Assembly: GCA_019135865.1 (NCBI GenBank)
Contig: JAGVVD010000011.1
Location: 62,001-126,000, forward strand
From: Elusimicrobiota bacterium
GTDB taxonomy: Bacteria; Elusimicrobiota; Elusimicrobia; Elusimicrobiales; UBA9959
Reading direction: 5' to 3'
Length of the DNA: 64,000 nucleotides
Shown: piece after piece, positions 13,050-48,370 of the stretch
Layout: the number at the start of each line of letters is the position of its first letter
Numbering within the stretch: position 1 is the first letter of the stretch
Program-made: the position numbers and the translations under genes
Notes under the pieces: model-generated
Seen by the model: only the letters and a program-made list of their open reading frames with translations
What the model was told of the DNA's origin: nothing
The model's database searches: none

Positions 13050-13208
13050 TCCCCGCCGCCGGGCGGGGGAACGTCCCCGGCGTGGCTGGCCCGCATCTTC
13101 ACTCCACATAACGTCGCTTTATTAAGGCATCTTTATGAAAGGATGTGTTTTGCCATGCGCAAGATCGCATGAGGCGGTCTACGCGGGCGATAGTGATAAT
13201 TCCCGCTC

Positions 13209-13237
13209 TTGACACCGCTTTGGTCCTTTTATAGCAT
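13209..13237 (+). promoter_or_regulatory. Promoter of the secreted-protein/PorV operon
   Basis: A perfect TTGACA (13209-13214), a 17-nt spacer and TAGCAT (13232-13237) lie 96 nt upstream of the start at 13334. Confidence 0.5.
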
Positions 13238-13333
13238 GGACTGACGGATTCGGGGGGGGATAATCCTTTGCAAATTTCAGGGTTCATTAGATACGCCGCG
13301 AGGGCGGCATACGCTGTATTATTGGAGGATAAT

Positions 13334-28991: not shown

Positions 28992-30133
28992 CGCTCTCCT
29001 CCCGACGCCAGGGCCAGGAAATGACCCTCGCACCTTCTGCAGCCCCGCGCTCTTTCCAGCAGTCCGAGCGCCCAGGCCCGGTCCCCCGCCTTTTTCCGGC
29101 CCGGGAGGAGCAGGGCCGCCCGACTAAAGAAGAACTCCTGACGCGCGGGGCTGGCGAGTCCCGATATAAGCAGCGCCCATGGACTGTTCAGGACCCGGTC
29201 CGCCTCCTCCGCCGCCTCCCGAAGCCGACCCTGCAGCAGCAGCGTCTCCGCCAGCCAGGTCCGCGCTTCCAGGTCGGCCCCGTTGACGGCCAGCGCCTTC
29301 CGCAGTTCGGCTGCAGCGGCCTTGCGTCGTCCCAGTTTCGCCAGCGCGGCGCCCCTCCAGCAATGGCTCATGGGGCTGCGGCCGCCCGCGCCGGGGCGCA
29401 GCGCCCGGAGCGCCTCCTCATACCTGCCCGCGAAAAGCAGCAGCTGGCCGCGCCAGGCCTCGAAGGAAGGAGAGCGGAGCGCGCGGGATTTCCGGGCCAG
29501 GAAGGCGAAGGCCCTTCCGCTTTTGCCGGAGCAGAGCAGCGCCTCCGCCGCCAGGCCGCAGGCGTTCTCGTCGCCGGGAAAGTTCTTCAGCGCCGGGGCC
29601 AGGGCGCGGGCCGCTTCGGCCGGTCTGCCGGAGGCGAGCAGCAGCCTGGCCGCGGCGGGATTCATAGCCGAGAGCCGGCCGGAGAAAACGGCGGGAGCGG
29701 CCGCTCTCCCGCGGGGCTCGAGCCTGGCGCGCAGCATGAAAAGATGCAGTTCCCTGAGACGGGCGGCCGCAGCCGGAAGGCGCGCCTTCCGGACCGAGGA
29801 CACCGCGCGCAGCCATTCCCGCAGCATGCCGGCGTCATAGAAACTCATCCAGGGGTCCCCGATCAGCTCGATAGCCTCGCGGGGGAGGCCTCGCGCGCGC
29901 GAAAGAAGTTCCGTGGAGAGCCGCAGGGCGTCCGGATAAAGGCCGGCGATCGCGAGCGCCGCCGCTTTCTGCGGGGAGGGGCCGGCCAGGGCCGCGTACC
30001 TGCGGAAAAGCCCGGCCGCTTCCCCGAACCTGGCGCCGTTCCTAAGGCGTTCCGCCAGGGCGTAAAGCCTGTCCAGCCGCCCGGGAGAGAATCGGACGCG
30101 GAACTTGTGGGAGATGAAGGAATCGAAGTTCAG
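28988..30133 (-). CDS. TPR-like protein; start codon unclear
   Basis: The protein-like sequence is alpha-helical with TPR-type units (RPAEAARALAPALKNFPGDE and GRYEEALRALRPG). The first ATG in frame is at 29848, giving 286 residues. However, 95 further upstream codons read as good protein (LNFDSFISHKFRVRFSPGRL onwards), back to a CTG at 30133. No ATG, GTG or TTG occurs in that stretch, and GGAGG (complement of 30149-30153) lies 15 nt before the CTG. So the gene either uses an unusual start or has a frameshift or sequencing error near the T6 run. It follows fumA with a short gap. Function unknown. Confidence 0.55.
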   Translation of the reverse strand: MNFDSFISHKFRVRFSPGRLDRLYALAERLRNGARFGEAAGLFRRYAALAGPSPQKAAALAIAGLYPDALRLSTELLSRARGLPREAIELIGDPWMSFYDAGMLREWLRAVSSVRKARLPAAAARLRELHLFMLRARLEPRGRAAAPAVFSGRLSAMNPAAARLLLASGRPAEAARALAPALKNFPGDENACGLAAEALLCSGKSGRAFAFLARKSRALRSPSFEAWRGQLLLFAGRYEEALRALRPGAGGRSPMSHCWRGAALAKLGRRKAAAAELRKALAVNGADLEARTWLAETLLLQGRLREAAEEADRVLNSPWALLISGLASPARQEFFFSRAALLLPGRKKAGDRAWALGLLERARGCRRCEGHFLALASGGER

Positions 30134-30184
30134 GTGACCCGTAAAAAACCTCCGGCCGGTCCGCCTCGCGGGCCCGCAGCCGCT

Positions 30185-31801
30185 TCAGCGCCCGCTGAAA
30201 AAGTCGTTTCCTTTGTCGTCGACCAGTATGAAGGCCGGGAAATCCTCGGCCTCTATCGCCCAGACGGCCTCCATGCCCAGTTCCGGGTAGTCGAGCGTCT
30301 CGACCTTCTTTATGTTGCGCTCGGCCAGCAGCGCGGCCGGGCCGCCCGGCGAGCCCAGGTAGAAGCCGCCGTATTTTTTGCAGGACTCGGTGACGGCCTT
30401 CGAACGGTTGCCCTTGGCTATCATGACCAGCGAGGCGCCGCGCGACTGCAGCGGGTCCGTATAGGAGTCCATGCGGCCGGCCGTGGTGGGGCCGAAGGAG
30501 CCCGCCGGCCTGCCGGCGGGCGTCTTGGCCGGGCCCGCGTAATAGACCGGGTGCTTCAGGAGGTAATCCGGCAGCGGCCTGCCCGCGTCGAGCAGTTCCT
30601 TGAACTTCGCGTGGGCTATGTCGCGCGCGACCACGATGCGGCCGTTGAGCGAGAGGCGGGTGCCGACGGGGTGCTTCGAAAGCTGCGCGCGTATCTCGTC
30701 CATCGGCCTGTTCAGGTCCACGGGAACGCAGGCGGAGCACGAAGAGAATTTCGCGCGGGCCTCCTCCGGGATAAGGCGGCCGGGATCGCGCTCCAGCTCC
30801 TCCAGCCAGACGCCCTCCTTGTCTATGCGGGCGAGGATGTTGCGGTCGGCCGAGCAGGAGACGCCCATGCCGACGGGGCAGGAGGCGCCGTGCCGCGGCA
30901 GCCGCACGACGCGTATGTCGTGCGCGAAATACTTGCCGCCGAACTGCGCCCCGAAGCCGATCTTCTCCGCGGCCTTGAGCAGCCTGGCCTCCAGGTCCCG
31001 GTCGCGGAAGCCCCGGCCGAGGCCGTCGCCGGACTCCGGCAGGCCGTCGAGGTAGCCGGTCGAGGCCAGCTTGACGGTCTTGAGGCACATCTCGGCGGAG
31101 GTGCCGCCGATGACGAAGGCGATATGGTAGGGCGGGCAGGCCGCGGTGCCCAGCGAGCGCATCTTCTCGACCAGGAATTTCTCCAGCGAGACCGGGTTGA
31201 GCAGGGCTTTGGTCTCCTGCCAGAGCATGGTCTTGTTGGCCGAGCCGCCGCCCTTGGCGATGAAGAGGAATTCGTAGGAATTGCCCGGGACCGCGTAGAT
31301 GTCCACCTGGGCCGGCAGATTGTCGCCGGTGTTCCTCTCGGCGTACATGTCCAGCGGCGCCGTCTGGGAATAGCGCAGGTTCTCGCCGGTATAGGCCTCC
31401 CAGATGCCCTGCGAGATGAAATGGGCGTCGTACACCCCGGTGCGGACGTTCTCGCCTTTCTTGGCCACCACGGTGGCGGTGCCGGTGTCCTGGCAGAAAG
31501 GCAGCTCGAAGCGGGCCGAGATGGCGGCGTTCTCGAGCAGGCAGTAAGCCATGAACTTGTCGTTCTCGGAAGCTTCGGGGTCGGAGAAGATCCTGGCCAC
31601 CTGCTCCTGGTGGTCGGGGCGCAGCAGGAAGGAGGCGTCGCGGAAAGCCTCGCGCGCCAGCAGGGCCAGCGTCTCCGGAGCGACCTCGACCGTCTCGTGG
31701 CCGGGCTCGCCGGAGACCTTGATCCCGTCCTTCGTGAGGAGGCGGTACTTTACGTCCGGTTTTTTCAGCTGGAATATCTCGCGGTAGACGAACTCGGGCA
31801 T
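30185..31801 (-). CDS. fumA: Fumarate hydratase, class I (iron-sulfur, FumA type)
   Basis: Class I fumarase interconverts fumarate and malate using an oxygen-sensitive 4Fe-4S cluster. At 538 residues it is the fused (alpha plus beta) form. Candidate cluster cysteines lie in [13 protein letters not shown] (about 103), [15 protein letters not shown] (about 222) and [12 protein letters not shown] (about 310). The beta part has the family motif [17 protein letters not shown] precedes the ATG at 31801. It is the fourth gene of the sdhC-A-B-fum unit, which gives a continuous succinate-fumarate-malate segment. Confidence 0.95.
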
Positions 31802-31867
31802 GGTCTTCTCCTGGGGGCGGGGAAAACGGCGGGAAGCCCCGCGCGCGGCGGAGCCTCCCGCGGGAGG

Positions 31868-32632
31868 TCAGCGCTTGGAGAGGAAGTTGGCCAGCAGGAA
31901 CTCCCGGTTCATGCGGGCGATATTGGCGACCTTCACTTCCTTGGGACAGACGGCCTCGCACTCGTACTCGTTGGTGCAGTTGCCGAAGCCCTCGGCGTCC
32001 ATCGCTTCCACCATGTCGAGCGCGCGCTTCGCCTTCTCGGGCCCGCCCTGCGGCAGCAGCGCCAGCTGCGAGATCTTGGCGCCGGTGAAGAGCATGGCCG
32101 CGCCGTTGGGGCAGGCGGCCACGCAGGCGCCGCAGCCTATGCAGGCGGCGGCGTCCATGGCCTCCTCGGCGTCGTCCTTGTCCACCGGGACGGAGTTGGC
32201 GTCGGGCGCCGCGCCGGTATCGACCGAGACGTAGCCGCCGGCGGCCATGATGCGGTCCAGCGAAGAGCGGTCCACGACGAGGTCCTTCAGGACCGGGAAG
32301 GATTTCACGCGCCAGGGTTCCACGGTGATGACATCGCCGTCCTTGAAGCGCCGCATGTGCAGCTGGCAGACGGTGGAATGTTCGTCGGGGCCGTGCACGT
32401 CGCCGTTCACCACCAGGCCGCAGCAGCCGCAGATGCCCTCGCGGCAGTCGCTGTCGAAGGCGATGGGGGTCTCGCCGCGCCTGACCAGGTCCTCGTTGAG
32501 CACGTCGAGCATCTCGAGGAAGGACATGTCCGGGTCCACGCCCTTCACCTCGTAGGACTCCATGCGGCCTTTCTCCCCCGGACCGGCCTGCCGCCATACC
32601 CGCACGGTCACTCCGAATTTCTTCTCGCTCAT
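31868..32632 (-). CDS. sdhB: Succinate dehydrogenase/fumarate reductase iron-sulfur subunit
   Basis: This is a 254-residue SdhB/FrdB. The 2Fe-2S motif CREGICGCCG (about residues 63-72) with a downstream Cys in TVCQLH, the first CxxCxxC block CIGCGACVAACP, and the second in CTNEYECEAVCP supply the three clusters. These carry electrons between flavoprotein and membrane cytochrome at the inner face of the membrane. The gene lies between sdhA and fumA on the minus strand. Direction of catalysis cannot be told from sequence. Confidence 0.95.
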   Translation of the reverse strand: MSEKKFGVTVRVWRQAGPGEKGRMESYEVKGVDPDMSFLEMLDVLNEDLVRRGETPIAFDSDCREGICGCCGLVVNGDVHGPDEHSTVCQLHMRRFKDGDVITVEPWRVKSFPVLKDLVVDRSSLDRIMAAGGYVSVDTGAAPDANSVPVDKDDAEEAMDAAACIGCGACVAACPNGAAMLFTGAKISQLALLPQGGPEKAKRALDMVEAMDAEGFGNCTNEYECEAVCPKEVKVANIARMNREFLLANFLSKR

Positions 32633-32644
32633 GATCGGTCTCCG

Positions 32645-34558
<1,914 letters not shown>

Positions 34559-34559
34559 G

Positions 34560-35249
34560 TTATCTGGCCTCCGTCGCGGCGACCTGGTAATGGTGCTCGA
34601 CTTTTTTCTGGTCGAGTTCGAGCAGGAAATAGACCGAGATCATGGCGAAGCCGGCCATGGTCAGCGCGACCAGCAGCCCGCCCAGCTTTATGAACGGCGT
34701 ATACTTGGGATGGTTCACCCCCAGCGTCTGGAAGGCGCTCTGCATGCCGTGGCTCAGGTGCAGCGCCAGCGCCAGCGAGCCGGCTATATAGACCCCGACG
34801 AAGACCGGGTCGCGGAAAGCGCCGGTCACCATGGCGTAGAACCCCATCGAGTGATCGGCGAAGCGGAAGTCCACCAGGTGGTAGACCAGGTAGGCCAGTA
34901 TGGCGGCGGCGGTGTAGAGCATGGTGGCCGAGCCGATGGTCCGGCCGCCCTGCCACCTGCGTTCCTCGTAGCCGGCCGGCGCGTTGCGCCAGTCCTCCCA
35001 GCGCACCCAGACGGCCGTGACGATGTGCAGCAGGAAGACCGCGGCCAGCCCCAGTTCGGCGTAGATTATGAACGGGTTGGAAAGCAGCAGGTCCACCCAG
35101 CCGTTATAGGCCTTCTCGCCGTAGAAGAGCAGGAGGTTCTCGGCCAGGTGCACCAGCATGAAGGCGCCCAGCGCCAGGCCGGTGACGGCCATGACGAACT
35201 TCCTGCCTATAGAGGTGAAGATCACGCGTTTGACGAATCCAATGTCCAT
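34560..35249 (-). CDS. sdhC: Succinate dehydrogenase cytochrome b subunit (type B)
   Basis: This 229-residue membrane anchor has five helices and His residues in the expected places for two haems b ([43 protein letters not shown]). It receives or donates menaquinol electrons. I chose the ATG at 35249 because GGAG lies 9 nt upstream. The frame remains open for more than 1,100 codons further back, antisense to the NHL-repeat gene, which is not credible coding. First gene of the sdh-fum unit, with a good promoter at 35290-35318. Confidence 0.93.
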
Positions 35250-35377: not shown

Positions 35378-35435
35378 ATGGGAGGGATCCCTGCAGACCT
35401 TTATGAACATACCGCTGTTTCCGCGGAGGAACACT

Positions 35436-38400
35436 ATGAAGAGTTTCAATATCTGCGCGCTCATGCTCGCCGCCCTGCTGGCCGCGCCGGCGGGCGCATA
35501 CGACAAGATCGAGTTCAAGGGCCAGATAACGAACCCGATGCTGACCAGGCCCTCCGGCGTCGCTTCGAACGGCGAGCGGGTCTACGTCGCCGACGCCAGG
35601 GCCAGCGCGGTGCTGGTCTTCGAGGCCGCGGAGGGCAAGTTCGTGTCGAAGTCCGACGCGCAGCTCAAGGGCCCCGCCGGCCTGGCGATAGGCGCCGACC
35701 GCCTCTACATAGCCGATTCGGGCAATTCCCGCGTCAGCGTCACGGACCTCGACGGCAAATATCTCTGGTCCTTTTCCGGCAAGGGCAAGGGTCCGGGACA
35801 GCTCTCCTCGCCCATGGCCCTCGCCTTCGGTCCCGACGAAAGGCTTTACGTGGCCAATACCGGCGCCTCCAGCGTCGAAGTATTCAACGCCGACGGCATC
35901 TATCTTTACGGTTTCCCGACCAAACGCAACGACGGCGTCACCGTCGTGAAGCCCGCCGCCATAGCCGCCGATTTCGCCGGCAACCTCTTCGTTTCCGACC
36001 CGTCCAAGTCGCTGCTGCAGCAGTACGACCGCTCGGGCAGGCTGCTGCGCGAGCAGGAGATAGCCAACAACGGCGTGGCCGCCGGCCCGGACGGGATCAT
36101 CTACATCGTCAACGCCAGGGAGGGCAAGGTGCGCGAGCTGGGCTATGACGGCTCCGTCATCGGCACTTTCGGCACCCGCGGCAAGGGCAGGACCGAGTTC
36201 CAGAACCTCTGCGGCGCCGCCGCCGATCCTGCCGGTACCCTGTATCTTTGCGACGACGGCAACAAGAAGGTCACCTACCTCCGGCTCGAAGGCACCAAGG
36301 GGGCCGAAGGCCTGAAGCCGGCCGCGCTGCTGACGCGCTTCACCATCAAGGGCCCGGCGGACAAGGCGGCCTTCAAGAGCGACCTGCTGGCCGTGCGCGG
36401 GGACGGTTCCATGATCGCCTACATGCCCGACGCCAGGGAACTGGTGCTCATAGAGAAGGGCGTGAAGAAGACCGTGGCCGTCATGGGCAAGCTGCCGGGC
36501 CAGGTGAAAGCGCCCAAGGGGATCTTCGCCGCCGGGGACGGCAGGTTCTTCGTCGCCGACACCGGCAACGACCGCGTGCAGATCTTCAAGGCCGACGGTT
36601 CCTTCGAATCCCAGTTCGGCGGCTCCGGCTCCGGCGAGGGCAAGTTCAGGGCCCCGATGGGCCTGACGGTCAACGGCAACAAGAACGTCTATATCGCCGA
36701 CTCCAGGAACAAGCGCGTGCAGGCCTTCAGCCAGGACGGCATCTTCCTCTTCGCCGTCGGCCCGCAGGTAGGCGCCCTGACGCTGATGGACCCGGTCGAC
36801 GCGGCTTCCGACGAGAAGAACAATCTCTATATCCTCGACGCGGGGCTCAAGAAGGTCATAGTCACCGACCAGAGCGGGAAGTTCCTCTCCGCCTGGGACG
36901 ACTCCGGGTCCCTGGTCTCGCCGGCCTCGCTGGTCTACGACGGGAAGGGCTTCTTCTACGTGCTGGACAAGGGCGCCTACAGCGTCAAGATCTTCGACGC
37001 CGCCGGCCGCTTCCAGGCCTCTTTCTTCGCCCGGGGCGCCGGAGAGCGGGAGCTCGCCGCGCCGCAGTTCCTTGCCTACGGCGGGGACCGGATACATATC
37101 GCCGACGCCGGCGCCGGCAGGATCGTCTCCTTCGACATAAGCTATATACCCGAAGCCCCGGCGGATTTCGCCGCGGCGCCGGGCGACAGGGGCGTGAAAC
37201 TTTCCTGGAAGCCGGTCGGCAACCACCGGGTCAAGGGCTACAAGGTCTTCAGGGCCCCCGCGGAGGGCGGCAAATGGGCCGAACTGGCCTATACCGAGAA
37301 GACCTTCCACGAGGACGCCTCGGCCGTGGCCGGCGCAGCCTACCGCTACCGGGCCGCGGCGGTCTCGTCCGCGGGGTTCCCCGGCGAATACACGCCGGCC
37401 GCGACGGCGGCGGCGGGCGGGAAGGCGGCGGCCGCGGCGGTCCGCGACCCCCGCAACGTCTCCCCGGTGGAGATAGAGCCCGTCGAGCTGAACTACATCT
37501 TCTCGGCCAACTACAAGCGCTATCTCAACAAGCCGGTGGGCCGCATCGCGGTGCGCAACAATACCGACAAGGCCTTCAGCAACGTCAAGATCTCCTTCAA
37601 CCTCAAGGACTACATGGACTTCCCGCACGATTCCATCGTCGAATCCATCGGTCCGAACGAGGTGAAGGAAGTCGACCTGATGGCCACGCTCAACAACCGC
37701 GTGCTCGGCATAACCGAGGACACCCCGATACAGTCCCAGCTCTCGGTGACCTATTATACCGACGGGCAGGAGAAGACGGTCACGCTCAATAAACCGGTGA
37801 AGGTGCTTTCCAAGAACGCGATAATCTGGGACAGGCCCGAGCGCCTGGCCACCTTCATCACGGCCAAGGACACCCCGGTCTTCGCTTTCAGCCGCTACGC
37901 GCTGGTCGAGACCGGTAAGCTGGAGAAGGAAGCCGCGCTGGTGGACGAGAACCTGGTCAAGGCGCTTTTCGCCTGGGAGGCGCTGGGCGAGGAGGGCGTA
38001 ACCTACCTGGCCGACCCGGTCAATCCCTACGCCACCGCCAAGAGCGGCGCGGACGAGCATATCCTCGACACCGTGCAGTTCCCGCGCACCACGCTGAAGA
38101 TACACAGCGGCGATTGCGACGACCTGACGGCGCTCTTCGCCTCGATCTTCGAGGCCGCCGGTCTGCGGGCCGCCCTGCTGGACTACCCGTCGCATATCGC
38201 CGTGATGTTCGAGGCCAGGTCGGCCGACGCCCGCGAGGTCGGCCTGCCGGAGGATATGCTGGTGCGTCACAACGACGCCTGGTGGATCCCCCTCGAGACC
38301 ACGATGGTGGGCAAGGATTTCCACGACGCCGTGGCCACCGCCGCCGACATGTACAATAAGATGAAGGAATCGGTGAAGATCGTGGACGTGCGCGCCGCCT

Positions 38401-38900
38401 GGTCCGAATTCGAGCCCGTCACCCTGCCCGAAGCCGAGGCTAGGTACGAAGGCGGAGAGAAACTCTCGCCGCGGGTGAAGAAAGCGCTGGAGGCCCTGCT
38501 CAGGTCCCGCTACGGGCATATGAAGAAATATTACGGCGATATTCTGGCCTCCGACCCTTCCAACGAGGACGCCCTGCTGAACCTGGGACTGCTGCACGCC
38601 CAGCACGGGGAGAACGGCGAAGCCGCCGGGACCTTCGGGAAACTGCTCGAAAAGGACCCCGGCCACGCCGCCGCGCTCAATAACCTGGGGAACCTGGCTT
38701 TCAGGGCCGGCGACGCCGCCAAGGCCTCGGAGTATTACCGCAAGGCTTCCAAGGCCGACCCTTTCGACGCCGGGACCTGGCTGAACCAGGCCCGCGCCGC
38801 GCTCAAGGCGGGCAGGAAGGACGACGCCAGGACCTACGTGGAGCGCGCGGTCAAAATAGACCCCTCGGCCAAAGCCGCGGGAGACCAGCTTCTTAAATAG
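35436..38900 (+). CDS. Exported NHL-propeller / FN3 / transglutaminase-like / TPR protein
   Basis: The protein has 1154 residues. A signal peptide (1-22, ending AGA) is followed by about twelve NHL-type blades (about 30-570; for example GDGRFFVADTGNDRVQIFK). One fibronectin type III domain comes next (about 575-660). A beta-rich region is followed by a transglutaminase-like domain (about 830-990) with Cys in HSGDCDDLTALF (about 893), His in YPSHIAVMF and an acidic residue in WWIPLETT. Two or three TPRs end the protein (about 1030-1150). The triad appears complete, so a periplasmic protease or transamidase role is possible. I chose the ATG at 35436 with GGAGG 6 nt upstream; the frame opens at 35403 without a signal start. 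It is co-transcribed with the next small gene. Confidence 0.8.
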   Translation: MKSFNICALMLAALLAAPAGAYDKIEFKGQITNPMLTRPSGVASNGERVYVADARASAVLVFEAAEGKFVSKSDAQLKGPAGLAIGADRLYIADSGNSRVSVTDLDGKYLWSFSGKGKGPGQLSSPMALAFGPDERLYVANTGASSVEVFNADGIYLYGFPTKRNDGVTVVKPAAIAADFAGNLFVSDPSKSLLQQYDRSGRLLREQEIANNGVAAGPDGIIYIVNAREGKVRELGYDGSVIGTFGTRGKGRTEFQNLCGAAADPAGTLYLCDDGNKKVTYLRLEGTKGAEGLKPAALLTRFTIKGPADKAAFKSDLLAVRGDGSMIAYMPDARELVLIEKGVKKTVAVMGKLPGQVKAPKGIFAAGDGRFFVADTGNDRVQIFKADGSFESQFGGSGSGEGKFRAPMGLTVNGNKNVYIADSRNKRVQAFSQDGIFLFAVGPQVGALTLMDPVDAASDEKNNLYILDAGLKKVIVTDQSGKFLSAWDDSGSLVSPASLVYDGKGFFYVLDKGAYSVKIFDAAGRFQASFFARGAGERELAAPQFLAYGGDRIHIADAGAGRIVSFDISYIPEAPADFAAAPGDRGVKLSWKPVGNHRVKGYKVFRAPAEGGKWAELAYTEKTFHEDASAVAGAAYRYRAAAVSSAGFPGEYTPAATAAAGGKAAAAAVRDPRNVSPVEIEPVELNYIFSANYKRYLNKPVGRIAVRNNTDKAFSNVKISFNLKDYMDFPHDSIVESIGPNEVKEVDLMATLNNRVLGITEDTPIQSQLSVTYYTDGQEKTVTLNKPVKVLSKNAIIWDRPERLATFITAKDTPVFAFSRYALVETGKLEKEAALVDENLVKALFAWEALGEEGVTYLADPVNPYATAKSGADEHILDTVQFPRTTLKIHSGDCDDLTALFASIFEAAGLRAALLDYPSHIAVMFEARSADAREVGLPEDMLVRHNDAWWIPLETTMVGKDFHDAVATAADMYNKMKESVKIVDVRAAWSEFEPVTLPEAEARYEGGEKLSPRVKKALEALLRSRYGHMKKYYGDILASDPSNEDALLNLGLLHAQHGENGEAAGTFGKLLEKDPGHAAALNNLGNLAFRAGDAAKASEYYRKASKADPFDAGTWLNQARAALKAGRKDDARTYVERAVKIDPSAKAAGDQLLK

Positions 38901-38921
38901 ACGAGGGAACTAGGAGGGAGC

Positions 38922-39515
38922 ATGAGCAAGACCATAATAGCCGCGATGCTGTTCTCTTTCTGCGCCGGCCTGGCCGCCGCGGAGGAGAAACCGGCGGCCC
39001 AGGCGCCGGCCGGGACGGACCAGGCGGAGGTCCGCAAGGACAAGGAAAAGGAGAAGGACAAGGAGTCCTGGAAGTCCTGGTACGACAACTTCTACAAGGG
39101 GCTGCGTTCCAAGGTGCAGAAGAAATTCCACTCCAGGACCCGCGTCAGCGCGGTCGCGGCGGTGCGCGGCGACAAGACCGGCGCCGACGCCTCCGAGCTC
39201 TACTGGAAGGGCGGCGTCTCCGAGCAGGGCCTCAAGAAGGCCGAGGCCGAGCGCAAGGCGCTGGGCGACGCGGCGGAACTGGTCGTCAACGGCGACGCGG
39301 CCGCCGGCCGGGCCGCGCTGGAGAAGTTCATCAAGGAGAATCCCGAGAGCCTGTACCTGCCGGACGCCAGGGAGGCCCTCGGGATGCTTCCCGCGGAAGC
39401 GCCCGCCCCGGCCGCGGCGACGCCGGCGAAACCCGCCGCCACCGGCAAGGACGCGGCCCCCGCCAAAGAACCGGCGCCGGGAACCGCGCCCGTAACGGCC
39501 GGCGACGGCAAGTAG
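38922..39515 (+). CDS. Small exported Lys/Ala-rich protein
   Basis: The 197-residue protein has a signal peptide (1-20, ending GLAAA), then a Lys/Glu/Asp-rich stretch (DKEKEKDKESWKSWYDNFY) and a helical middle with a possible degenerate TPR (AAELVVNGDAAAGRAALEKF and the following NPESLYLPDAR). The tail is a disordered Pro/Ala/Lys segment. GGAGGGAG precedes the ATG. It lies 21 nt after the NHL/transglutaminase gene and before a terminator, so it is probably its partner. The family is not recognised. Confidence 0.7.
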   Translation: MSKTIIAAMLFSFCAGLAAAEEKPAAQAPAGTDQAEVRKDKEKEKDKESWKSWYDNFYKGLRSKVQKKFHSRTRVSAVAAVRGDKTGADASELYWKGGVSEQGLKKAEAERKALGDAAELVVNGDAAAGRAALEKFIKENPESLYLPDAREALGMLPAEAPAPAAATPAKPAATGKDAAPAKEPAPGTAPVTAGDGK

Positions 39516-39531
39516 AACGTACGGAAATGAG

Positions 39532-39561
39532 AAGGGCGGCCTCCGGGCCGCCCTTTTTTTT
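39532..39561 (+). terminator. Rho-independent terminator
   Basis: AAGGGCGGC / GCCGCCCTT stem (9 bp) with a CTCCGG loop, followed by eight T residues. Confidence 0.85.
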
Positions 39562-39576
39562 GCCGGTCCGGTATAA

Positions 39577-40359
39577 TTACTGCAGCGGGGCTCCCGGCAG
39601 TTTTTCGGCGCTGCCGGGCGCGGGGTAGGTGACCGGCGCGTGCTCTATCTCTTCCGTCCCCTGCGGGACCGGGAGGCCGGACTGCATTTCCGCCGCCGGC
39701 GGGTCCTCCGGCCTGGCGACCGGGGACGAGGGGTCCTTCAGCCGGGTATAGACGTCGGTGGCGGTTTTCCAGAGCATGTTGCGCAGCAGAGCGCGTTCCC
39801 TGGCGGCGGGGCTGGCGAAAGGATAGAGCGGGAAGATCAGCGCGTGGAACACCGTGCGGTGCCTGGCTATCTCCTCCACTTCCAGCTTCCCGCCGCGGTC
39901 CGAAGTCGCCAGGATCCGGTAGTTGACGTTCAGCGAGGAGGGGACCAGCATGATCCAGGAGGTCTCCACCAGGAAGGACTTGAACAGGTCCCGGTAGGTC
40001 CAGCGGCCGTAGGTGGTCAGGTCCAGATACAGGGTGCCCTCTCCGCCGGCCGGGTCGTAAAGCCCGGCCTCCTTCATTATATTGAACGCCCTGGTCCGCA
40101 GTTCGAAGAACTCCTGCCTCTCCACCGGGACGGGTTTGGGCGGCGGCGTCCCTTCGACGGTACCCTGGCCTATCAGTTCCGCCGGGTTGAAATAAGGATA
40201 ATTGGTCCAGGTGAAGCGGAGCGAGGAGAAAGGCCGTATCTCTTCGTCGGCCATCATCGCTCTCAGCCCGTTGCGGTCTATCCGGACGTCCCCCGACTGG
40301 AAGGAGGCGCAGCCGGAGAACAGCAGCGGGAGCAGAAGCGGTATCCTGTATATCTTCAT
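39577..40359 (-). CDS. Lipoprotein of unknown function
   Basis: The 260-residue protein has a lipoprotein signal (LLFSGC, Cys at about residue 18). The rest is an alpha-beta domain without known motif; the WTYRDLFKSFLVETSWIMLV region suggests amphipathic or membrane-associated helices. I chose the ATG at 40359. The TTG at 40371 is an alternative. A GATAAT box on the minus strand (complement of 40372-40377) lies 12 nt upstream, giving a very short leader. It is divergent from the Lux-like operon. A GNA1162-like role is possible but not supported. Confidence 0.7.
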   Translation of the reverse strand: MKIYRIPLLLPLLFSGCASFQSGDVRIDRNGLRAMMADEEIRPFSSLRFTWTNYPYFNPAELIGQGTVEGTPPPKPVPVERQEFFELRTRAFNIMKEAGLYDPAGGEGTLYLDLTTYGRWTYRDLFKSFLVETSWIMLVPSSLNVNYRILATSDRGGKLEVEEIARHRTVFHALIFPLYPFASPAARERALLRNMLWKTATDVYTRLKDPSSPVARPEDPPAAEMQSGLPVPQGTEEIEHAPVTYPAPGSAEKLPGAPLQ

Positions 40360-40490: not shown

Positions 40491-40538
40491 ATCACGGGCC
40501 GCCAGCGGGGCGGCGAAAGTGGCGCCGGAGGCTTGAAA

Positions 40539-41768
40539 ATGAATTTCCGTCACGTCGATCTGACCGTCAATTCGGGGGACAACAACTTCGTCATACGCAT
40601 CCGCAACGCGCGGCACGAGGACGGCCGCCGCATCCAGATGCTCTTCGCCGAGGTGTACGGCCATAATTACCCTATGTCGCTGGTCTCGGACCGGGCCAAG
40701 ATGAACCACGCCATCTCCAGCGACGAGTATTTCTGGCTGGTCGGCGAGCATAACGGCCGCATCATCGCCAGCCAGATCATGCACGTGGACGCCGAGAACC
40801 GCCTGGGCAAGGCCATCGGCGCGGTCGTGTCGCGCGAGTACCGCAAGCATAAGCTCAACAACATCATGATGAACCTCATCATGGAGAGCGTCACCAAGAA
40901 GCACAAGATAGTGGACGCCGTCTACGCCACCACGCGCACCGTGACGGCCGCGCCCCAGAAGGTCCTGGACAACCTGGGCTTCTCCGCCCTCGGCATCTTC
41001 CCCAACGCCCACAAGATCCACGAGCACGAAACCTATTGCCTGACCGCCTACTACGTGCTCTCGGCGTGGGGCAAGCGGCGCAGGCCGGTGAAGCTGCTCA
41101 AGGAGATCGAGCCGTTCTTCAGGCTCGCCCAGCGCGAGCTGCTCAGCCGGCTGCCCAACAAGGAACTGCAGCTCGGCGCGGCGCGCTTCGTGGTGGAGAA
41201 GTCCCCCGACGCCGGGCATCCCAACAGGGCCGACCAGAAGCTGATACAGTTCGAGACCGTAAACGCGCCCAGCTTCGTCGCCGAGCGCTTCCGCAGGTCG
41301 GGCAATACCGGCGTCTTCTCCAACTTCTACGTGCCTTTCCATAAACCCAATATGATGCTGGTCTCGCACGACCAGAAGACCGAGGTCTACCTGCAGTACA
41401 ACCCGCAGGACAAGTACACCGCCATCATCGGCGGGCGGAGCGAGATCCAGGACCTTTCGCTGCTGCTCAACAGCGTGGCGGACGTGGTGAGCAACCTCAA
41501 TATCAGCTACCTCGAATGCCTGGTCGACGCCTATACGCCGGAGCTGCAGCGGCAGGCCATAGACGCGGGGTTCCTGCCCAGCGCCTATTTCCCCGCGATG
41601 CGCCTGGTGGGACGCAAGCGCTGGGATTATATCGCCTTCTCCCGCTCCTTCGAGACGCTGGACTTCCGCAAGGTCAGCCTTATCCCGACCTACCGCGCCT
41701 ATCTGAAGGAGTACATCAAGATGTGGAACGCCATGTACGTCGAGACGGCGCTGCGGAGCGGCAAGTGA
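40539..41768 (+). CDS. GNAT family acyltransferase, first gene of the Lux-like operon
   Basis: The 409-residue protein has an N-terminal GNAT domain (about residues 14-200), with the acetyl-CoA motif GAVVSREYRKHKLNNIMMN (about 95-113) and LDNLGFSALGIFPN near its end. A second domain (about 200-409) resembles another GNAT-type fold. The donor and acceptor are unknown; an N-acyltransferase acting on an aldehyde- or acyl-carrying partner would suit the context. I chose the ATG at 40539 (GGAGG 7 nt upstream); the frame is open from 40461 across the promoter. The stop overlaps the LuxE-like gene as GTGA (41765-41768). Confidence 0.75.
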   Translation: MNFRHVDLTVNSGDNNFVIRIRNARHEDGRRIQMLFAEVYGHNYPMSLVSDRAKMNHAISSDEYFWLVGEHNGRIIASQIMHVDAENRLGKAIGAVVSREYRKHKLNNIMMNLIMESVTKKHKIVDAVYATTRTVTAAPQKVLDNLGFSALGIFPNAHKIHEHETYCLTAYYVLSAWGKRRRPVKLLKEIEPFFRLAQRELLSRLPNKELQLGAARFVVEKSPDAGHPNRADQKLIQFETVNAPSFVAERFRRSGNTGVFSNFYVPFHKPNMMLVSHDQKTEVYLQYNPQDKYTAIIGGRSEIQDLSLLLNSVADVVSNLNISYLECLVDAYTPELQRQAIDAGFLPSAYFPAMRLVGRKRWDYIAFSRSFETLDFRKVSLIPTYRAYLKEYIKMWNAMYVETALRSGK

Positions 41769-42925
41769 AGCTCCGGGCCTGCTCCAGGCCGGTAGCGGTC
41801 CCGCTGGGCGACCGCACCGCCATGGGCAGGCTTGCCGAGCTGCCGCCTTACCGCCATTCCGCCTCCGACAGGGCCGTTTTCACCGCCGCGCTGCGGGCGT
41901 CCTCGGCCGTGCACCTGCGCCGCTGCCCGGAGTTCGCGGGCCTGTGGCGGGCCGAGGGCTTCCGGCCCGCGGACCTGCGCTCCTGGCGCGATACCGCCCG
42001 CATGCCCCATATCGTAGTGGCCGCCTTCAAGGAGCGCGCCCTGGTCAGCGCGGCCGGGAAGGAGATAGTGCTGGAGATGACCTCCAGCGGCACCTCCGGC
42101 CAGCGCAGCCGCATCGTCTTCGACCGGCCCTCGCTGCTGCGGCTGCAGCGGCAGGCCTGGCAGGTCTTCAACGGCATGGGCCTGGCCGCCGGGGGGACCG
42201 TCACCGACTATCTCTGCTTCACCTACGATCCCGCCGTGGCCAGGAACGTCGGCACGGCCTTCAGCGACGAGAGCATCACCGGCCTCACCCTGCGCGGCGA
42301 GGTCTTCTACGCCCTGCGCTGGGACGCGGGGAAGAAGGATTTTTATTTCGACCTCGAAGGCGCCGTGGCCGCGCTGGAGCGTTTCGAGCGGAGCGGCCGG
42401 CCGGCCCGCCTGGTCGGCTTCCCCGCCCACGCGATGGCGGTCTGCGGGGAATTCTCCCGGCGGCACGGCCGCGCCGCCCGGCTGCACCCGGACAGCCGGG
42501 TCATAACCGGCGGCGGCTGGAAGGACAAGCAGGACCGCGCCGTGGACAAGGGCGAGATGCGCGCGCGGCTGGCCCGCTCGCTCGGCCTGCCGGCGGAGCA
42601 TGTCCGCGACCTGTTCGGCATGGTCGAGCACGGCGTGCCTTACGTGGACTGCCGGCTCGGCAATTTCCATATTCCCGTCTACAGCCGGGTGATAGCGCGG
42701 CACCCGGCCACCCTGAAGGCCCTCCCCTGCGGCGAGACCGGCCTCCTGCAGTTCATCGCGCCCTACCTGACCAGCTATCCTTCGATCTCGCTGCTTTCCA
42801 GCGACAGGGGCTGGATCGAAAAGAAATGTCCCTGCGGCCTCGGCGGCGAAGTGCTGCATATCGCCGGGCGCGCGGGGATCACTAAAATGAAGGGCTGCGC
42901 GGTTTCCGCCGCCTCGACGCTATGA
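41765..42925 (+). CDS. LuxE-like acyl-protein synthetase
   Basis: The 386-residue protein belongs to the adenylate-forming superfamily, with the LuxE-type ATP loop EMTSSGTSGQRSRI (about residues 99-112) and a final GEVLHIAGRAGITKMKG. In luminous bacteria LuxE activates a fatty acid as acyl-AMP and passes it to LuxC for reduction. The length fits LuxE (about 370-380). A GTG start (41765) overlaps the previous stop, and ATGA at 42922 couples it to the LuxC-like gene. No luxA/B-like gene is present, so the aldehyde product must serve another purpose. Confidence 0.8.
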   Translation: MKLRACSRPVAVPLGDRTAMGRLAELPPYRHSASDRAVFTAALRASSAVHLRRCPEFAGLWRAEGFRPADLRSWRDTARMPHIVVAAFKERALVSAAGKEIVLEMTSSGTSGQRSRIVFDRPSLLRLQRQAWQVFNGMGLAAGGTVTDYLCFTYDPAVARNVGTAFSDESITGLTLRGEVFYALRWDAGKKDFYFDLEGAVAALERFERSGRPARLVGFPAHAMAVCGEFSRRHGRAARLHPDSRVITGGGWKDKQDRAVDKGEMRARLARSLGLPAEHVRDLFGMVEHGVPYVDCRLGNFHIPVYSRVIARHPATLKALPCGETGLLQFIAPYLTSYPSISLLSSDRGWIEKKCPCGLGGEVLHIAGRAGITKMKGCAVSAASTL

Positions 42926-45570
42926 GAAAGAACAACGCCTACCTTTTCGGCAGGAGCCTGCGCCGCTCCGGCCCCTGGACGCCCGCCGAGGTGGAGAAGA
43001 TCTGCCGCCGCGCCCGCGCCGCCGCCGCGCCGCTGGCCGCGGCCTCCCCGGAATACGTGCTGGACACGCTTGACGCGGTGGGCCGCTTCTGCGGCGACAA
43101 AAAAGGGGCGTGGTACCGCGGGGCCTTCCGGGAAATGAAAGAGTACTCCGGCTTTTCGGCGGAGACGGTCGCCCTGCTGCTGGATTCCCTGCCGCGGATG
43201 TTCAGCCGCGCCGAGACGGAGAAACGGCTCGCCCTGGAAGTCGGCCTGCCCGGCGCGCTGGAAGGCTGCGTGCCTCGCGACGGCTACGCGGGCGAGGTGA
43301 CCGCCTCGCCCCGCGGCGCGGTGCTGCACGTCACCGCCGGCAATGTCTTTATCGGGGCGATAGATTCGCTGCTGATGGGGATGCTCACGCGCAACGCCAA
43401 CGTGGTAAAGGCCTCCAGCGGCGGCGGCGCCGCCATCGCCCATTTCGCCCGCGCGCTGAAAAAATGCGACCGCCGGGGACTGCTCGCCTCCTCGGTGGCC
43501 GTGCTCGAATGGCCCGGCGGCGCGCGGGAGCTGGAGCTGGCCGCGGCCAGCTCCGTGGACGCCGTCATGGTCTGGGGAGGGGAACAGGCGGTCTCCGCCT
43601 GGCGCTCCGCCGCCCCTTCGACGGTGCACGTGGCCGGCTTCGGCCCCAAGATGAGCCTGGCCGTGGTGATGCCTTCGGCGCTGGCCGCGGAGGGCGCGGC
43701 CGCGGTGGCGGAAAAGATAGCCCGCGACGCCAGTTTCGCCGAGCAGCAGGCCTGCTCCTCCCCGCAGGACGTCTTCATAGTGGACCCGGCGCTGCGCCGC
43801 CGCGATCCCCTGGCCCGGGAATTCCGGCTGGCCCTGGCCGCCGGCTTCAGGAAGGCCGCAGCCGAGATCCCGCCCGGCCCGCTCTCTTTCGACGAGCAGG
43901 CCGAACTCACCCGCGCGCGCGGCCTGGCCAAGATAGACGCCGCGGCCGGCGCGGCCGCGCTCGAAAGCGCCTTCCCTTCCACGGACTGGACCGTCATAGC
44001 GGAGAAGGACGCCCGGTTCAGGCCCTCGCCGCTCAACCGGACGCTTTACCTTAAATGCGTGGATTCGCTGGGCGACGTTGCGAAGGCCGTGGCCGCCCGC
44101 CGCGGCATGATACAGACCGCCGGCGTCGCGGGGACGCTGGCCGAGCGGCGGGAGGTGGCCCGCCGCCTGTCGCCGCTGGGCGTGGCCCGGATCACCCGGG
44201 CCGGCGCCATGCTCGAAGCCCCGCCCGGCTCGCCTCACGACGGCACCTTCCCGATGCGGGAGCTGGTGCGGTTCACCGGCGTGGAGGGCGCGCCCTCGGC
44301 TGTCGACGTCCTTTCCGAACTGACGGAGCACGCGCGTTCGAAGAGCCCTTTCTACCGGAAGCACCTGCGCGGCGTGCCTCCGATAGTTTCCGAAGAGGGA
44401 TTCCGCAAGGTGCCCCTGCTTACCAAGGACCATATCCTGGCCAATAGCCCGCCGGACAGTACGGCCATGTTCACCGCCCCGGTGCGCGGCGGCGTCTACT
44501 TCGCCAGCGGCGGCTCCACCGGCAGCCCGAAATACATCTTCTTCGAGGACCGCGAGCACGATAAGGTCTCCCGCTTTTTCGCGGCCAGCATGATGAGCGC
44601 CGGCCTGACCGGCGAGGACAGGGTGGCCAATCTCTTCGTGGCCGGCAATCTCTGGTCCAGCTGGCTCGGCGTCGAGCGGGCGCTGGCGCTGACGCCGGCC
44701 GTCTCGGTGCCGGTGGGCAGCGCGCTGCCGCTGCCGGTCATAGCGGCCTACCTGCGCGATTTCAAAGTGACCGTGATAGTCGGCCTGCCGTCCTTCCTGC
44801 TTAAGTTCGCCGAGTTCATACGGGAGCACAGGAAGGAGTATCCTTTCCCGCTCAGGACCATCCTTTTCGGCGGAGAATACGCCGGGCCGGAGATGGTGCG
44901 CTTCTTCAGGAGCGTCTTCCCCGGCGTGAGCGTGCGTTCCGTCGCCTACGCCTCCGTCGACGCGGGCATGATCGGCTACCAGTGCCCGCATTGCCCGGGC
45001 GCGGTGCACCATCTCTTCGAGTCCGGGCAGTACATGGAGATCCTCGACCCCGCCACCGGCCTGCCGGTCAAGCCCGGCGCCACCGGCGAACTGGTCGTCA
45101 CGGTGCTGCAGAAGCGGCATATGCCCATCATCCGCTTCAGGGTGGGGGACCTCGGCCGCTGGGTGGAAGGCCCGTGCCGCTGCGGCCGCGCCGACCGGCG
45201 CTTCGAGATACTCGGGCGCTGCGACGACCGCATCCACGCCGGCGGGGCGCATATCTTCGTCGGCGACATCTCGCGCGCGGTGGCCTCGGTCAGGGGGCTG
45301 AGCCTGAATTTCCAGCTGGAGATCTCCGCCGGCAAGGGCGGCGACCGCCTGAAGCTGCGCGTGGAGACGCGCGGCGCGGCGCCGGCCCCGAAGGGCACGG
45401 AGGCGGCGCTGCTGGCCGCCCTGAGGAAGAACTGCCGGGACATGGCGGATTCGTTGGACATGAAGTGGCTGGCGCCGCCGGAGCTGGAAGTGCTGCCGGC
45501 GGGCGCGATAGAACGAGTGGCGCGCACCGGCAAGATCCGGCGCGTCATCGACCGCCGCGTGAAGGCCTGA
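42922..45570 (+). CDS. LuxC-like acyl reductase fused to a PaaK-like CoA ligase
   Basis: The protein has 882 residues in two parts. Residues about 1-450 are LuxC-like (aldehyde dehydrogenase superfamily): SPRGAVLHVTAGNVFIGA and the nucleophile region FAEQQACSSPQDVF with Cys at about 277. Residues about 465-882 resemble phenylacetate-CoA ligase: RGGVYFASGGSTGSPKYIFF (about 520-539, AMP loop), then RFRVGDLGRWVEGPCRCGRA and KIRRVIDRR near the end. The fusion joins acid activation and reduction, so an acyl or aryl acid could be converted to an aldehyde on one polypeptide, with the LuxE-like protein as a second activating unit. No stop or frameshift separates the two halves. Confidence 0.85.
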   Translation: MRKNNAYLFGRSLRRSGPWTPAEVEKICRRARAAAAPLAAASPEYVLDTLDAVGRFCGDKKGAWYRGAFREMKEYSGFSAETVALLLDSLPRMFSRAETEKRLALEVGLPGALEGCVPRDGYAGEVTASPRGAVLHVTAGNVFIGAIDSLLMGMLTRNANVVKASSGGGAAIAHFARALKKCDRRGLLASSVAVLEWPGGARELELAAASSVDAVMVWGGEQAVSAWRSAAPSTVHVAGFGPKMSLAVVMPSALAAEGAAAVAEKIARDASFAEQQACSSPQDVFIVDPALRRRDPLAREFRLALAAGFRKAAAEIPPGPLSFDEQAELTRARGLAKIDAAAGAAALESAFPSTDWTVIAEKDARFRPSPLNRTLYLKCVDSLGDVAKAVAARRGMIQTAGVAGTLAERREVARRLSPLGVARITRAGAMLEAPPGSPHDGTFPMRELVRFTGVEGAPSAVDVLSELTEHARSKSPFYRKHLRGVPPIVSEEGFRKVPLLTKDHILANSPPDSTAMFTAPVRGGVYFASGGSTGSPKYIFFEDREHDKVSRFFAASMMSAGLTGEDRVANLFVAGNLWSSWLGVERALALTPAVSVPVGSALPLPVIAAYLRDFKVTVIVGLPSFLLKFAEFIREHRKEYPFPLRTILFGGEYAGPEMVRFFRSVFPGVSVRSVAYASVDAGMIGYQCPHCPGAVHHLFESGQYMEILDPATGLPVKPGATGELVVTVLQKRHMPIIRFRVGDLGRWVEGPCRCGRADRRFEILGRCDDRIHAGGAHIFVGDISRAVASVRGLSLNFQLEISAGKGGDRLKLRVETRGAAPAPKGTEAALLAALRKNCRDMADSLDMKWLAPPELEVLPAGAIERVARTGKIRRVIDRRVKA

Positions 45571-45828: not shown

Positions 45829-47034
45829 ATGAGCGTTTACACCCCGAGACAACTGGAGAAGTACGCCGACGCCCTGATCTGGGGCCTGACCGCCGCCCGC
45901 CCCAAGCCTTTCAAAAAGTACGACAATATCCTGGTCCGCTGCGACCTGGAGGCCAGGGAACTGGGCGAGGTCGTCCACCGCAAGCTGGTCAAGCGCGGCT
46001 TCAACGTGGTCTTCAATTTCCTCTCCACCCCGGCCATAGAGCGTTCCTTCTACGAACATTCCGACGAGAGGCAGCGCGGCTTCCTCGGGTCCTGGGATAA
46101 GGAGCTCTACAACAACCTCAACGGTTACGTCTACATCAACGCCCCCGCCTCGCTGACCCATCTCAAGGACATAGACACCAAGCGGCAGTCGCAGGCGGCC
46201 ATCGCCCGCAAGCCGCTCTGGGAGATACGCAACAGGCGCGAGGGGAAGGGACAGTTCGCCTGGACCCTCTGCACCTACCCGACGGAGGAGCTGGCGAAGC
46301 AGGCGAAGCTCTCCCTGAAGGAGTACGCCGCGCAGATAGCCAAGGCCTGCTACATAAACGAGCCCGACCCGGCCAAAAAGTGGAACAGCATCTTCAAAGA
46401 AGTGACGGCCATCAAGAAATGGCTCAACGCCCTGCCGATAGACACCATCCGCACCGAATCGGCCTCCATGGACTTCGAAGTGAAACTGGGCGACCGCCGC
46501 AAGTTCCTCGGGGTGAGCGGCCACAATATCCCGAGCTTCGAGATCTTCACCTCGCCGGACTGGCGCGGCACGCGCGGCGTCTACTACGCCAACCTGCCGA
46601 CCTTCCGCGGCGGCAACTACGTGGAGAGGATACGCCTGGAGTTCAAGGACGGACGCGCCGTGAAGATCTCCGCGGCCAGGGGACAGGACTATGTCCGCAA
46701 GGTCATGGCCACCGACAGGGGCGCCGCGCAGATAGGCGAGTACTCGCTGACCGACCGCCGGTTCTCCAAGATAGACAAGTTCATGGCCGACATACTTTTC
46801 GACGAGAACCATGGGGGGAAGCACGGCAACTGCCACGTCGCCATCGGCAGCGCCTATACCGACACCTACGCCGGCGATCCGTCGAAACTGACCAAAGAGG
46901 CCAAGGCGAAGCTGGGCTACAACGACTCGGCCGTGCACTGGGACATGATCAATACCGAGGACAAGAAGGTCACCGCGACGCTGAAGAACGGGAAGAAAGC
47001 GACCATATACGAGAAGGGCCAGTTCAAGTACTGA
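45829..47034 (+). CDS. M29 family metalloaminopeptidase
   Basis: The 401-residue protein is of the usual length for M29 (aminopeptidase T/S) enzymes, which remove N-terminal residues with two metal ions in the cytoplasm. Conserved late blocks are DENHGGKHGNCHVAIGSAYT and YNDSAVHWDMI, the latter providing His and Asp ligands. The central DFEVKLGDRRKF.G.SGHNIP resembles the family's substrate-side segment. AGGAGGAG lies just before the ATG at 45829; the open frame to 45781 crosses the promoter. Single gene with its own terminator. Confidence 0.9.
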   Translation: MSVYTPRQLEKYADALIWGLTAARPKPFKKYDNILVRCDLEARELGEVVHRKLVKRGFNVVFNFLSTPAIERSFYEHSDERQRGFLGSWDKELYNNLNGYVYINAPASLTHLKDIDTKRQSQAAIARKPLWEIRNRREGKGQFAWTLCTYPTEELAKQAKLSLKEYAAQIAKACYINEPDPAKKWNSIFKEVTAIKKWLNALPIDTIRTESASMDFEVKLGDRRKFLGVSGHNIPSFEIFTSPDWRGTRGVYYANLPTFRGGNYVERIRLEFKDGRAVKISAARGQDYVRKVMATDRGAAQIGEYSLTDRRFSKIDKFMADILFDENHGGKHGNCHVAIGSAYTDTYAGDPSKLTKEAKAKLGYNDSAVHWDMINTEDKKVTATLKNGKKATIYEKGQFKY

Positions 47035-47056
47035 GCCCCGCGCGGCGCCGCCGCCG

Positions 47057-47087
47057 GAGGGCCGCCCGCGGGCGGCCCTCTTTCTTT
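47057..47087 (+). terminator. Rho-independent terminator
   Basis: GAGGGCCGCC / GGCGGCCCTC arms around CGCG, followed by TTTCTTTT. Confidence 0.8.
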
Positions 47088-47122
47088 TGTGGCCCACCGC
47101 TTAATTTGGAATAATGTAATAC

Positions 47123-48370
47123 ATGAGCACACTGATGGCGGCGTTAAAGACGGAACGCGGGCGGCACGTGGCGCGCGGCGTCTTCCTGGCGGGTTTCTCG
47201 GCCACCTTCCTCTTCTGCGGCTACGAGTTCATCCGCTCGCCCGCCGAATCCATCTTCATGGCCCATTTCAGCGCGGCCGACAAACCCTACGCGCTGAGCG
47301 TGGTGCCTTTCTTCATGGCGGCCATGATCTACCTCTACGGGCGCTCGCTCTCGGCCTTCGGCGGCTCGCGCACCATGGTCGGTTCCATGCTGGTCTCGGC
47401 CGCCGGCCTGGTCGGCCTCTATTTCGCCGTGGGCCTTCTCGGCAAGCCCGCCGCCTTCCTGCTCTACGTCTTCAAGGAATCCTATGTCGTGATAATCTCG
47501 GAGCAGTACTGGTCCTTCATCAACAGCGTGCTGCGCGACGAGGAAGGCAAGGTCTTCAACGGCCCCGTGGCCGGCCTGGGCGCGCTGGGCTCGCTGCTGG
47601 GCGGCTTCTTCCTCAGCCGTTACGTGGCCGGCTTCGGCACCGAGGCCTTCATCCTCTTCTCCGCCGTCATGTTCTTCCCGGCGGCCGTGCTCATACGAGG
47701 GGCTTACGCGCAGGCCGGAGAGCCGCAGCCCTCGCGCGAGGAGGCCGGCGGCCGGCTCGGCCACGTGCACCTGAGCATACTGAAACAGAACCGCACCGTG
47801 CTCTTCATCGCCCTCGTCATTTTCAGCGCCCAGGTGGTGGCCACCATGCTGGACATGCGCTTCTCGCTGCTGGTGCAGGACGCCCTGCCGGACAAGGACC
47901 TGCGCACGGCCTACCTGGGCTCCTTCTGGATGTGGGTCAACGGCTTCTCGTTCGCGATGCAGTTCATCATGGCGCCGCTGCTGCTGCGCTGGGTGCCGAC
48001 CCGCGGCATACAGGCGGCCATCCCGGCCGTGCACATCGCGGCCTGCGCGCTGCTGCTCGTCGCCCCGTCGCTGGCCCTGGCCGCCGGCGCTTTCCTGCTC
48101 TTCAAGGGGATGGACTATTCCATCTTCCGGGCCTCCAAGGAGACGCTCTACATCCCGTTCTCCTACGACACCCGCTACCGCGCCAAGCAGGTGGCCGACG
48201 CCTTCACCTACCGCTTCTCCAAGGGTTTCACTTCCATGGTCCTCTCGGCGGTGAAGGCCTCGGGCGGCATGCCCGGCGGGGCCTACGCGGCGGCGGCGCT
48301 GCTCTTCGCGGCCGCCTGGCTGGGGCTGTCGTTCCCGATGACGGCGAAGCGGGAAACCGCGGCCGCCTGA
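47123..48370 (+). CDS. NTP/NDP-exchange-type (AAA family) transporter-like membrane protein
   Basis: The 415-residue protein has about 11-12 membrane helices. The segment DYSIFRASKETLYIPFSYDT and the following AKQVADAFTYRFSKG match the AAA (ATP:ADP antiporter) family signature, which usually reads KEMLYIP. In Chlamydiae and rickettsiae these carriers import host nucleotides. Relatives of unknown substrate also occur elsewhere, so exchange of ATP for ADP here is not established. The region before the ATG is AT-rich (ATAATGTAATAC) with no Shine-Dalgarno, so the mRNA may be leaderless. Confidence 0.75.
   Translation: MSTLMAALKTERGRHVARGVFLAGFSATFLFCGYEFIRSPAESIFMAHFSAADKPYALSVVPFFMAAMIYLYGRSLSAFGGSRTMVGSMLVSAAGLVGLYFAVGLLGKPAAFLLYVFKESYVVIISEQYWSFINSVLRDEEGKVFNGPVAGLGALGSLLGGFFLSRYVAGFGTEAFILFSAVMFFPAAVLIRGAYAQAGEPQPSREEAGGRLGHVHLSILKQNRTVLFIALVIFSAQVVATMLDMRFSLLVQDALPDKDLRTAYLGSFWMWVNGFSFAMQFIMAPLLLRWVPTRGIQAAIPAVHIAACALLLVAPSLALAAGAFLLFKGMDYSIFRASKETLYIPFSYDTRYRAKQVADAFTYRFSKGFTSMVLSAVKASGGMPGGAYAAAALLFAAAWLGLSFPMTAKRETAAA

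Follow-up and report, generated by a model that had tools for sequence, protein, structure and literature searches.

The window analysed here is a stretch of 64,000 nucleotides (nt), positions 62001-126000 of contig JAGVVD010000011.1, from a 2.95 Mb Elusimicrobiota genome. It contains a trio of genes that encode a GNAT-family protein, a LuxE-family protein and a fusion of LuxC with a PaaK-like ligase domain (Table 1). A preliminary description had reported three coupled genes at this locus, and their coordinates, lengths and two stop/start overlaps are confirmed; the start codon of gene 2 is the GTG within GTGA, and that of gene 3 is the ATG within ATGA. A longer open reading frame (ORF) for gene 1, starting at 40461, is unneeded because a GGAGG motif is located 7 nt upstream of the ATG at 40539. 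Simple scans of the window for promoters and terminators gave nothing above shuffled sequence. The window copy of the trio shows no sign of decay, and the three-gene arrangement is not due to chance, given that dozens of genomes have the orthologues in this order and that both the order and the 4-nt overlaps are kept in divergent lineages (e.g., loci L085-L088 and L103). Gene calls in relatives came from a simple codon model that was trained per locus, which leaves starts approximate and some genes missed.

Table 1. Genes, domains and catalytic motifs of the trio, in window coordinates (aa, amino acids)
Feature	Position	Strand	Basis
Ribosome-binding-site-like GGAGG, gene 1	40527..40531	+	sequence
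Gene 1, GNAT-family protein, 409 aa	40539..41768	+	ORF, profile matches
GTGA stop/start overlap, genes 1/2	41765..41768	+	sequence
Gene 2, LuxE-family acyl-adenylating, acyl-Cys protein, 386 aa	41765..42925	+	Pfam LuxE 7e-35; solved LuxE 7xc6_E 1e-19
LuxE motif TSSGTSG, residues 106-112	42080..42100	+	ortholog alignment
LuxE acyl-carrying Cys378 (KGC motif)	42896..42898	+	present in 31/31 orthologues
ATGA stop/start overlap, genes 2/3	42922..42925	+	sequence
Gene 3, LuxC-PaaK fusion, 882 aa	42922..45570	+	Pfam, NCBIfam
LuxC acyl-thioester reductase domain, gene 3 residues 47-450	43060..44271	+	Pfam LuxC 4e-74; 7xc6_A 3e-23
LuxC catalytic Cys278 (EQQAC)	43753..43755	+	present in 28/29 orthologues
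PaaK-like adenosine monophosphate (AMP) ligase domain, residues 463-879	44308..45558	+	Pfam, NCBIfam, fold search
Ligase P-loop SGGSTG, residues 529-534	44506..44523	+	kept in all but one of 29 rows
Ligase C-terminal Lys871 (TGK)	45532..45534	+	28/28 rows reaching position

Between them, enzymes of the LuxE and LuxC families spend ATP and NADPH to convert an acid into an aldehyde, and the characterised members act on long-chain fatty acyl groups. The C-terminal KGC cysteine of gene 2 aligns with the KGC of the solved LuxE (7xc6_E), and the EQQAC cysteine of gene 3 aligns with DQQAC of the solved LuxC (7xc6_A). A search for loss of catalytic residues among the orthologues found Cys378, Cys278 and the ligase Lys871 kept. 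On the strength of these family assignments, the operon probably activates an acid and reduces it to an aldehyde, as had been proposed from the sequence. The matches to the lux-type LuxC and LuxE equivalogs NF052251 and NF052244 (6e-34 and 2e-26) are far under the cut-offs, at 117 vs 750 and 92.5 vs 550 bits, respectively. The luciferase genes luxAB, already noted as missing from the operon, have no counterpart elsewhere: a whole-genome search (completeness listed as 100) gave no match to the luciferase family PF00296. Light production is thus ruled out, and an end product other than light is supported. The acyl-transferase hydrolase LuxD is not encoded in the three-gene operon; the rest of the genome was not searched for it.

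The C-terminal part of gene 3 matches the Pfam families AMP-binding (8e-13) and AMP-binding_C_2 (3e-6) over residues 529-879, but the curated PaaK models are far from their cut-offs (TIGR02155, 113.6 vs 646.3 bits; NF041878, 148 vs 700). The motifs SGGSTG, GNLWSSW and YASVD of this domain stand where PaaK has SSGTTG, YGLFTGG and YGLSE. The PaaK domains of related cassettes share this pattern, with GG for SG in the P-loop and, in most of them, GxLYxxF or GNLWSSW for YGLFTGG and a YxSxD-like sequence for YGLSE. In quick tree searches, with support from the Shimodaira-Hasegawa-like approximate likelihood ratio test only, all cassette PaaK domains, from Elusimicrobiota, Salmonella and Streptomyces, form a single clade, separated with support 100 from the three catabolic-type PaaK proteins included. 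On score, motifs and tree, an ordinary phenylacetate-coenzyme A (CoA) ligase is rejected. The gene had been described as a reductase fused to a CoA ligase: the fusion stands, and the "CoA ligase" label is probably misleading because the domain belongs to a dedicated clade outside catabolic PaaK and lacks the usual motifs. The loop at the YGLFTGG position presumably lines the acid pocket, as in Burkholderia PaaK structures, so that its alteration suggests a different substrate. The structure predicted for this domain from four near sequences is of moderate quality (predicted local distance difference test, pLDDT, 57), and a fold search merely returns PaaK-family chains, among them the natural-product enzymes NatL2, AjiA1 and ClxA (~20% identity).

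The reading of gene 1 as a possible acyltransferase is supported. The GNAT domain occupies approximately residues 20-163 (40596-41027) and is followed by a conserved second half that has no family match. The Pfam GNAT match falls just under the cut-off (21.9 vs 24.3 bits), and so does that to TIGR03827 relative to the model's own cut-off (6e-8). A family profile of gene 1 identifies N-acetyltransferases in the PDB, namely phosphinothricin N-acetyltransferase (1.6e-5) and archaeal N-alpha-acetyltransferases, and gene 1 is homologous over its full length to Streptomyces proteins annotated as GNAT (profile match of 2.5e-86 over 369 columns). The closest solved relatives, which are only weakly similar, act by acetylating protein N-termini or the alpha-amines of molecules resembling amino acids. 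The structure predicted from four near sequences is too poor to use (pLDDT 40).

The trio recurs across the family of the window genome, where at least one member is present in 35 of the 37 genomes examined, several partial cases being located on short contigs. No true copy was detected among 24 sampled genomes of another family of the same order (f2), two other genera of which carry true copies (G124 and G125); phylum-wide, the fusion protein is matched at 1e-60 in 76 of 341 genomes. Across 15 loci, the distances between fusion proteins track those between SdhA proteins (Mantel r=0.79, with none of 5000 permutations as high), at mean identities of 66% and 84%, respectively, pointing to vertical inheritance of the trio in the family. 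A search of one literature library found no paper linking LuxE/LuxC to Elusimicrobia.

Gene neighbourhoods and trees resolve three forms of the cassette. Form A, that of the window, is the bare trio, with neither a second, stand-alone PaaK nor a major facilitator superfamily (MFS) transporter in the operon, and the window genome matches the fusion protein at one place only. Form A makes up two nearby groups in the PaaK tree and one group in the LuxC tree (support 89). Form B, found here in Elusimicrobiota only, adds a stand-alone PaaK, an MFS transporter and a second GNAT-like protein to the trio. Form C combines LuxE, LuxC-PaaK and a GNAT with a stand-alone PaaK and, in many cases, an MFS transporter; it occurs in some Elusimicrobiota (L093, L097, L105), on Streptomyces plasmids (NZ_CP108162, NC_016113 and NZ_CP081497) and, without the transporter, on a Salmonella enterica plasmid (CP054717). 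The fused and the stand-alone PaaK of form C each form a clade of their own across phyla, and thus the two-ligase set looks old, its genes having apparently travelled together, by inheritance or by transfer.

The Salmonella and Streptomyces cassettes share with the window the LuxC-PaaK fusion, an adjacent LuxE, a GNAT and a PaaK domain of the common clade. They differ in the extra stand-alone PaaK and, in Streptomyces, the MFS transporter, and their proteins are ~28-37% identical to those of the window. The order GNAT, LuxE, LuxC-PaaK in Streptomyces is identical to that in the window, and the last three genes of the Streptomyces cassettes are homologous end to end to the trio. The GNAT of the Salmonella cassette weakly matches amino-acid N-acetyltransferases. 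The comparison turned up no homologous operon whose proven function is unrelated.

Some further features of these cassettes were observed. The Salmonella cassette (L107:12560-18318) lies on a conjugative plasmid in the order LuxE, LuxC-PaaK, PaaK, GNAT, is flanked by transposase/recombinase genes and is annotated per gene, not as a pathway; the names that public records give to families and products have the status of annotations, not of tests. On a second Salmonella plasmid, the first three cassette genes are annotated and no adjacent GNAT is. Complete Escherichia coli genomes contain no copy of the Salmonella cassette (megablast) or of its fusion gene (blastn). The second GNAT-like protein of form B (~490 aa; L101:6720-8195 and relatives) matches the window GNAT profile in its middle part with the probability of 86%; by eye only, its N-terminal part resembles a HATPase-like or anti-sigma-type ATPase, with no Pfam match at cut-off. 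At one edge of the form B clusters (L073, L074, L075, L083, L091, L096 and L101), there is a protein with an N-terminal signal-like stretch, a weak Gln_deamidase_2 match and invariant GFC[FY]GR, WRFHV and A[IV]D motifs (a Cys/His/Asp pattern); our guess is that it might be a thiol enzyme, either targeted by the predicted aldehyde or giving protection from it.

The leup operon of Klebsiella oxytoca reportedly comprises four biosynthetic genes. This operon makes leupeptin and derived pyrazinones (PMC11480411), and in Xenorhabdus bovienii leupeptin is reportedly produced by separate AMP-dependent ligases and a reductase, with no nonribosomal peptide synthetase (NRPS) involved (PMC11212599). By analogy, the trio may be a minimal free-standing (non-NRPS) pathway to an N-acylated amino-acid or dipeptide aldehyde, a tentative reading to which we assign a probability of roughly 45%. 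An N-acyl amino-acid or peptide aldehyde is favoured because LuxE and LuxC-PaaK of the Salmonella, Streptomyces and Elusimicrobiota cassettes are accompanied by a GNAT and a further PaaK, generally along with an MFS exporter. The enzymes required for a minimal N-acyl peptide aldehyde would be a GNAT, an AMP ligase and a LuxE/LuxC reductase. Of the lipid, signalling molecule or secondary metabolite listed in the preliminary description, the idea of a product other than light holds, and the two-ligase comparison would narrow the list to such aldehydes. In the proposed pathway, the GNAT would transfer an acyl group from acyl-CoA to an amino acid, capping its alpha-amine; the PaaK-like domain would adenylate the N-acyl amino acid and couple a second amino acid to it; LuxE would adenylate the free carboxyl, with transfer of the acyl group onto Cys378; and LuxC would receive this group on Cys278 and reduce it with NADPH to the aldehyde. 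What is established for the LuxE and LuxC families makes a strong case for catalysis of the last two steps, and the analogy with leupeptin makes a moderate one for the first two, for the substrates and for a role in protease inhibition. The product would most likely be a protease-inhibiting peptide aldehyde rather than fuel for a light reaction.

One ligase domain would make one amide bond, and the Salmonella and Streptomyces cassettes have two such domains. With four biosynthetic genes, two of them for ligases, the Salmonella cassette has what acetyl-Leu-Leu-argininal would require, and the window product would have one amide bond fewer; that ligase count determines peptide length is put forward as a hypothesis. 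More broadly, it is conceivable, although doubtful, that the three proteins with their single ligase domain constitute a core pathway of Elusimicrobiota at the phylum level, yielding an N-acyl dipeptide aldehyde that is vertically kept as a built-in protease inhibitor or signal, within a widespread non-NRPS family where the number of PaaK domains per operon sets peptide length.

Several considerations weigh against a peptide aldehyde. Conservation that is near-universal, vertical and core-like is not what a specialised inhibitor usually shows, and it would be compatible with a role in lipids or the envelope. The GNAT similarity of gene 1 is weak, and the Salmonella GNAT aligns with that of the window over a short N-terminal stretch only. 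The bare trio lacks a dedicated exporter, and PaaK-like enzymes can make CoA thioesters, too. The comparison with leup is one of pathway logic as given in published descriptions, and membership of the leup pathway is not claimed.

Among the alternatives, the one that survives best is a system producing fatty aldehydes for lipids (ether lipid, wax ester or fatty alcohol), in which PaaK and LuxE would activate fatty acids, LuxC would reduce them and the GNAT would acylate a lipid precursor. The substrates of characterised LuxC and LuxE and the equivalog matches themselves speak for it, and core-like conservation would fit a membrane component; however, the scores are far under the equivalog cut-offs, no fatty-acid or lipid genes adjoin the trio, and the second PaaK of the sister cassettes is left unexplained, so that we consider this system unlikely. 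Less probable still is a pair resembling carboxylic acid reductase, with PaaK making an aryl- or acyl-CoA for reduction by the fused LuxC in detoxification or salvage: a ligase and a thioester reductase do share one chain, and PaaK similarity extends to sequence and fold, but other sequences stand in place of the PaaK signature motifs, LuxE would be redundant as a further activating enzyme with a conserved acyl-Cys of its own, and conservation of the fusion goes together with that of both GNAT and LuxE. An acyl-donor pathway for surface glycans has also been considered, a use of luxC/luxE that is reportedly similar in rfbKLMNO of Vibrio cholerae O1. It has a genuine precedent in the Aeromonas group II flagellin glycosylation islands, which carry luxC and luxE without luciferase (PMC7874193), but there the two genes lie amid acyl carrier protein, oxoacyl reductase and glycosyltransferase genes, whereas none of these was recognised beside the window trio, where the Pfam-identified neighbours are of other kinds and not every neighbour was scanned against the family library, nor does any such family recur beside the trio in relatives; we regard this pathway as improbable.

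The genes flanking the trio (35403-40359 and 45829-48370) encode an NHL/TPR protein, a small exported-looking protein, a divergent lipoprotein-like protein, an M29-like aminopeptidase and an MFS-like protein. Flanking genes hold their position across much of the family, but not beside divergent trios, and because of this absence the conserved neighbours (NHL/TPR protein, lipoprotein, SdhA/SdhC, M29-like aminopeptidase and transporter) were rejected as a functional clue: they look like inherited synteny. The genes lying between LuxE and LuxC-PaaK in a few relatives (F19/F20 at L060-L062) appear by eye to encode unrelated metal-transport proteins and are uninformative. Elsewhere in the window, an open frame of 2193 aa in which IPT/TIG-like stretches are repeated spans 14443-21024 in a low-G+C patch (~0.50 vs 0.65 around); an Rfam search of 12900-18000, which overlaps this frame, gave no match. 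A 1890-aa open frame on the + strand at 29021-34693, antisense to the succinate dehydrogenase gene region, looks like a high-G+C artefact.

With this reading, the puzzle of luciferase genes without luciferase becomes a testable small-molecule prediction in a phylum with little-known natural products. Through the cassettes of Streptomyces and of a conjugative Salmonella plasmid, a single non-NRPS assembly logic would tie antibiotic producers and a pathogen to environmental bacteria, and the three-protein version, the shortest, would be a handy system for amide-bond formation by PaaK-like ligases and handover to the LuxE/LuxC reductase.

Among known systems, bacterial luminescence uses the same two families, with the catalytic cysteines kept in the trio; the window genome differs in lacking luciferase, scoring under the lux equivalog cut-offs, fusing LuxC to a ligase and adding a GNAT. 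NatL2, AjiA1 and ClxA, AMP-forming ligases for small-molecule assembly, have the PaaK fold in common with the window domain, but the solved chains are stand-alone, none being joined to LuxC. Leupeptin needs two amide bonds, whereas the window has one PaaK-like domain. What the leup systems of Xenorhabdus, Photorhabdus and Klebsiella oxytoca and, by domain content, the trio have in common is a logic of one or more non-NRPS AMP ligases combined with an aldehyde-forming reductase.

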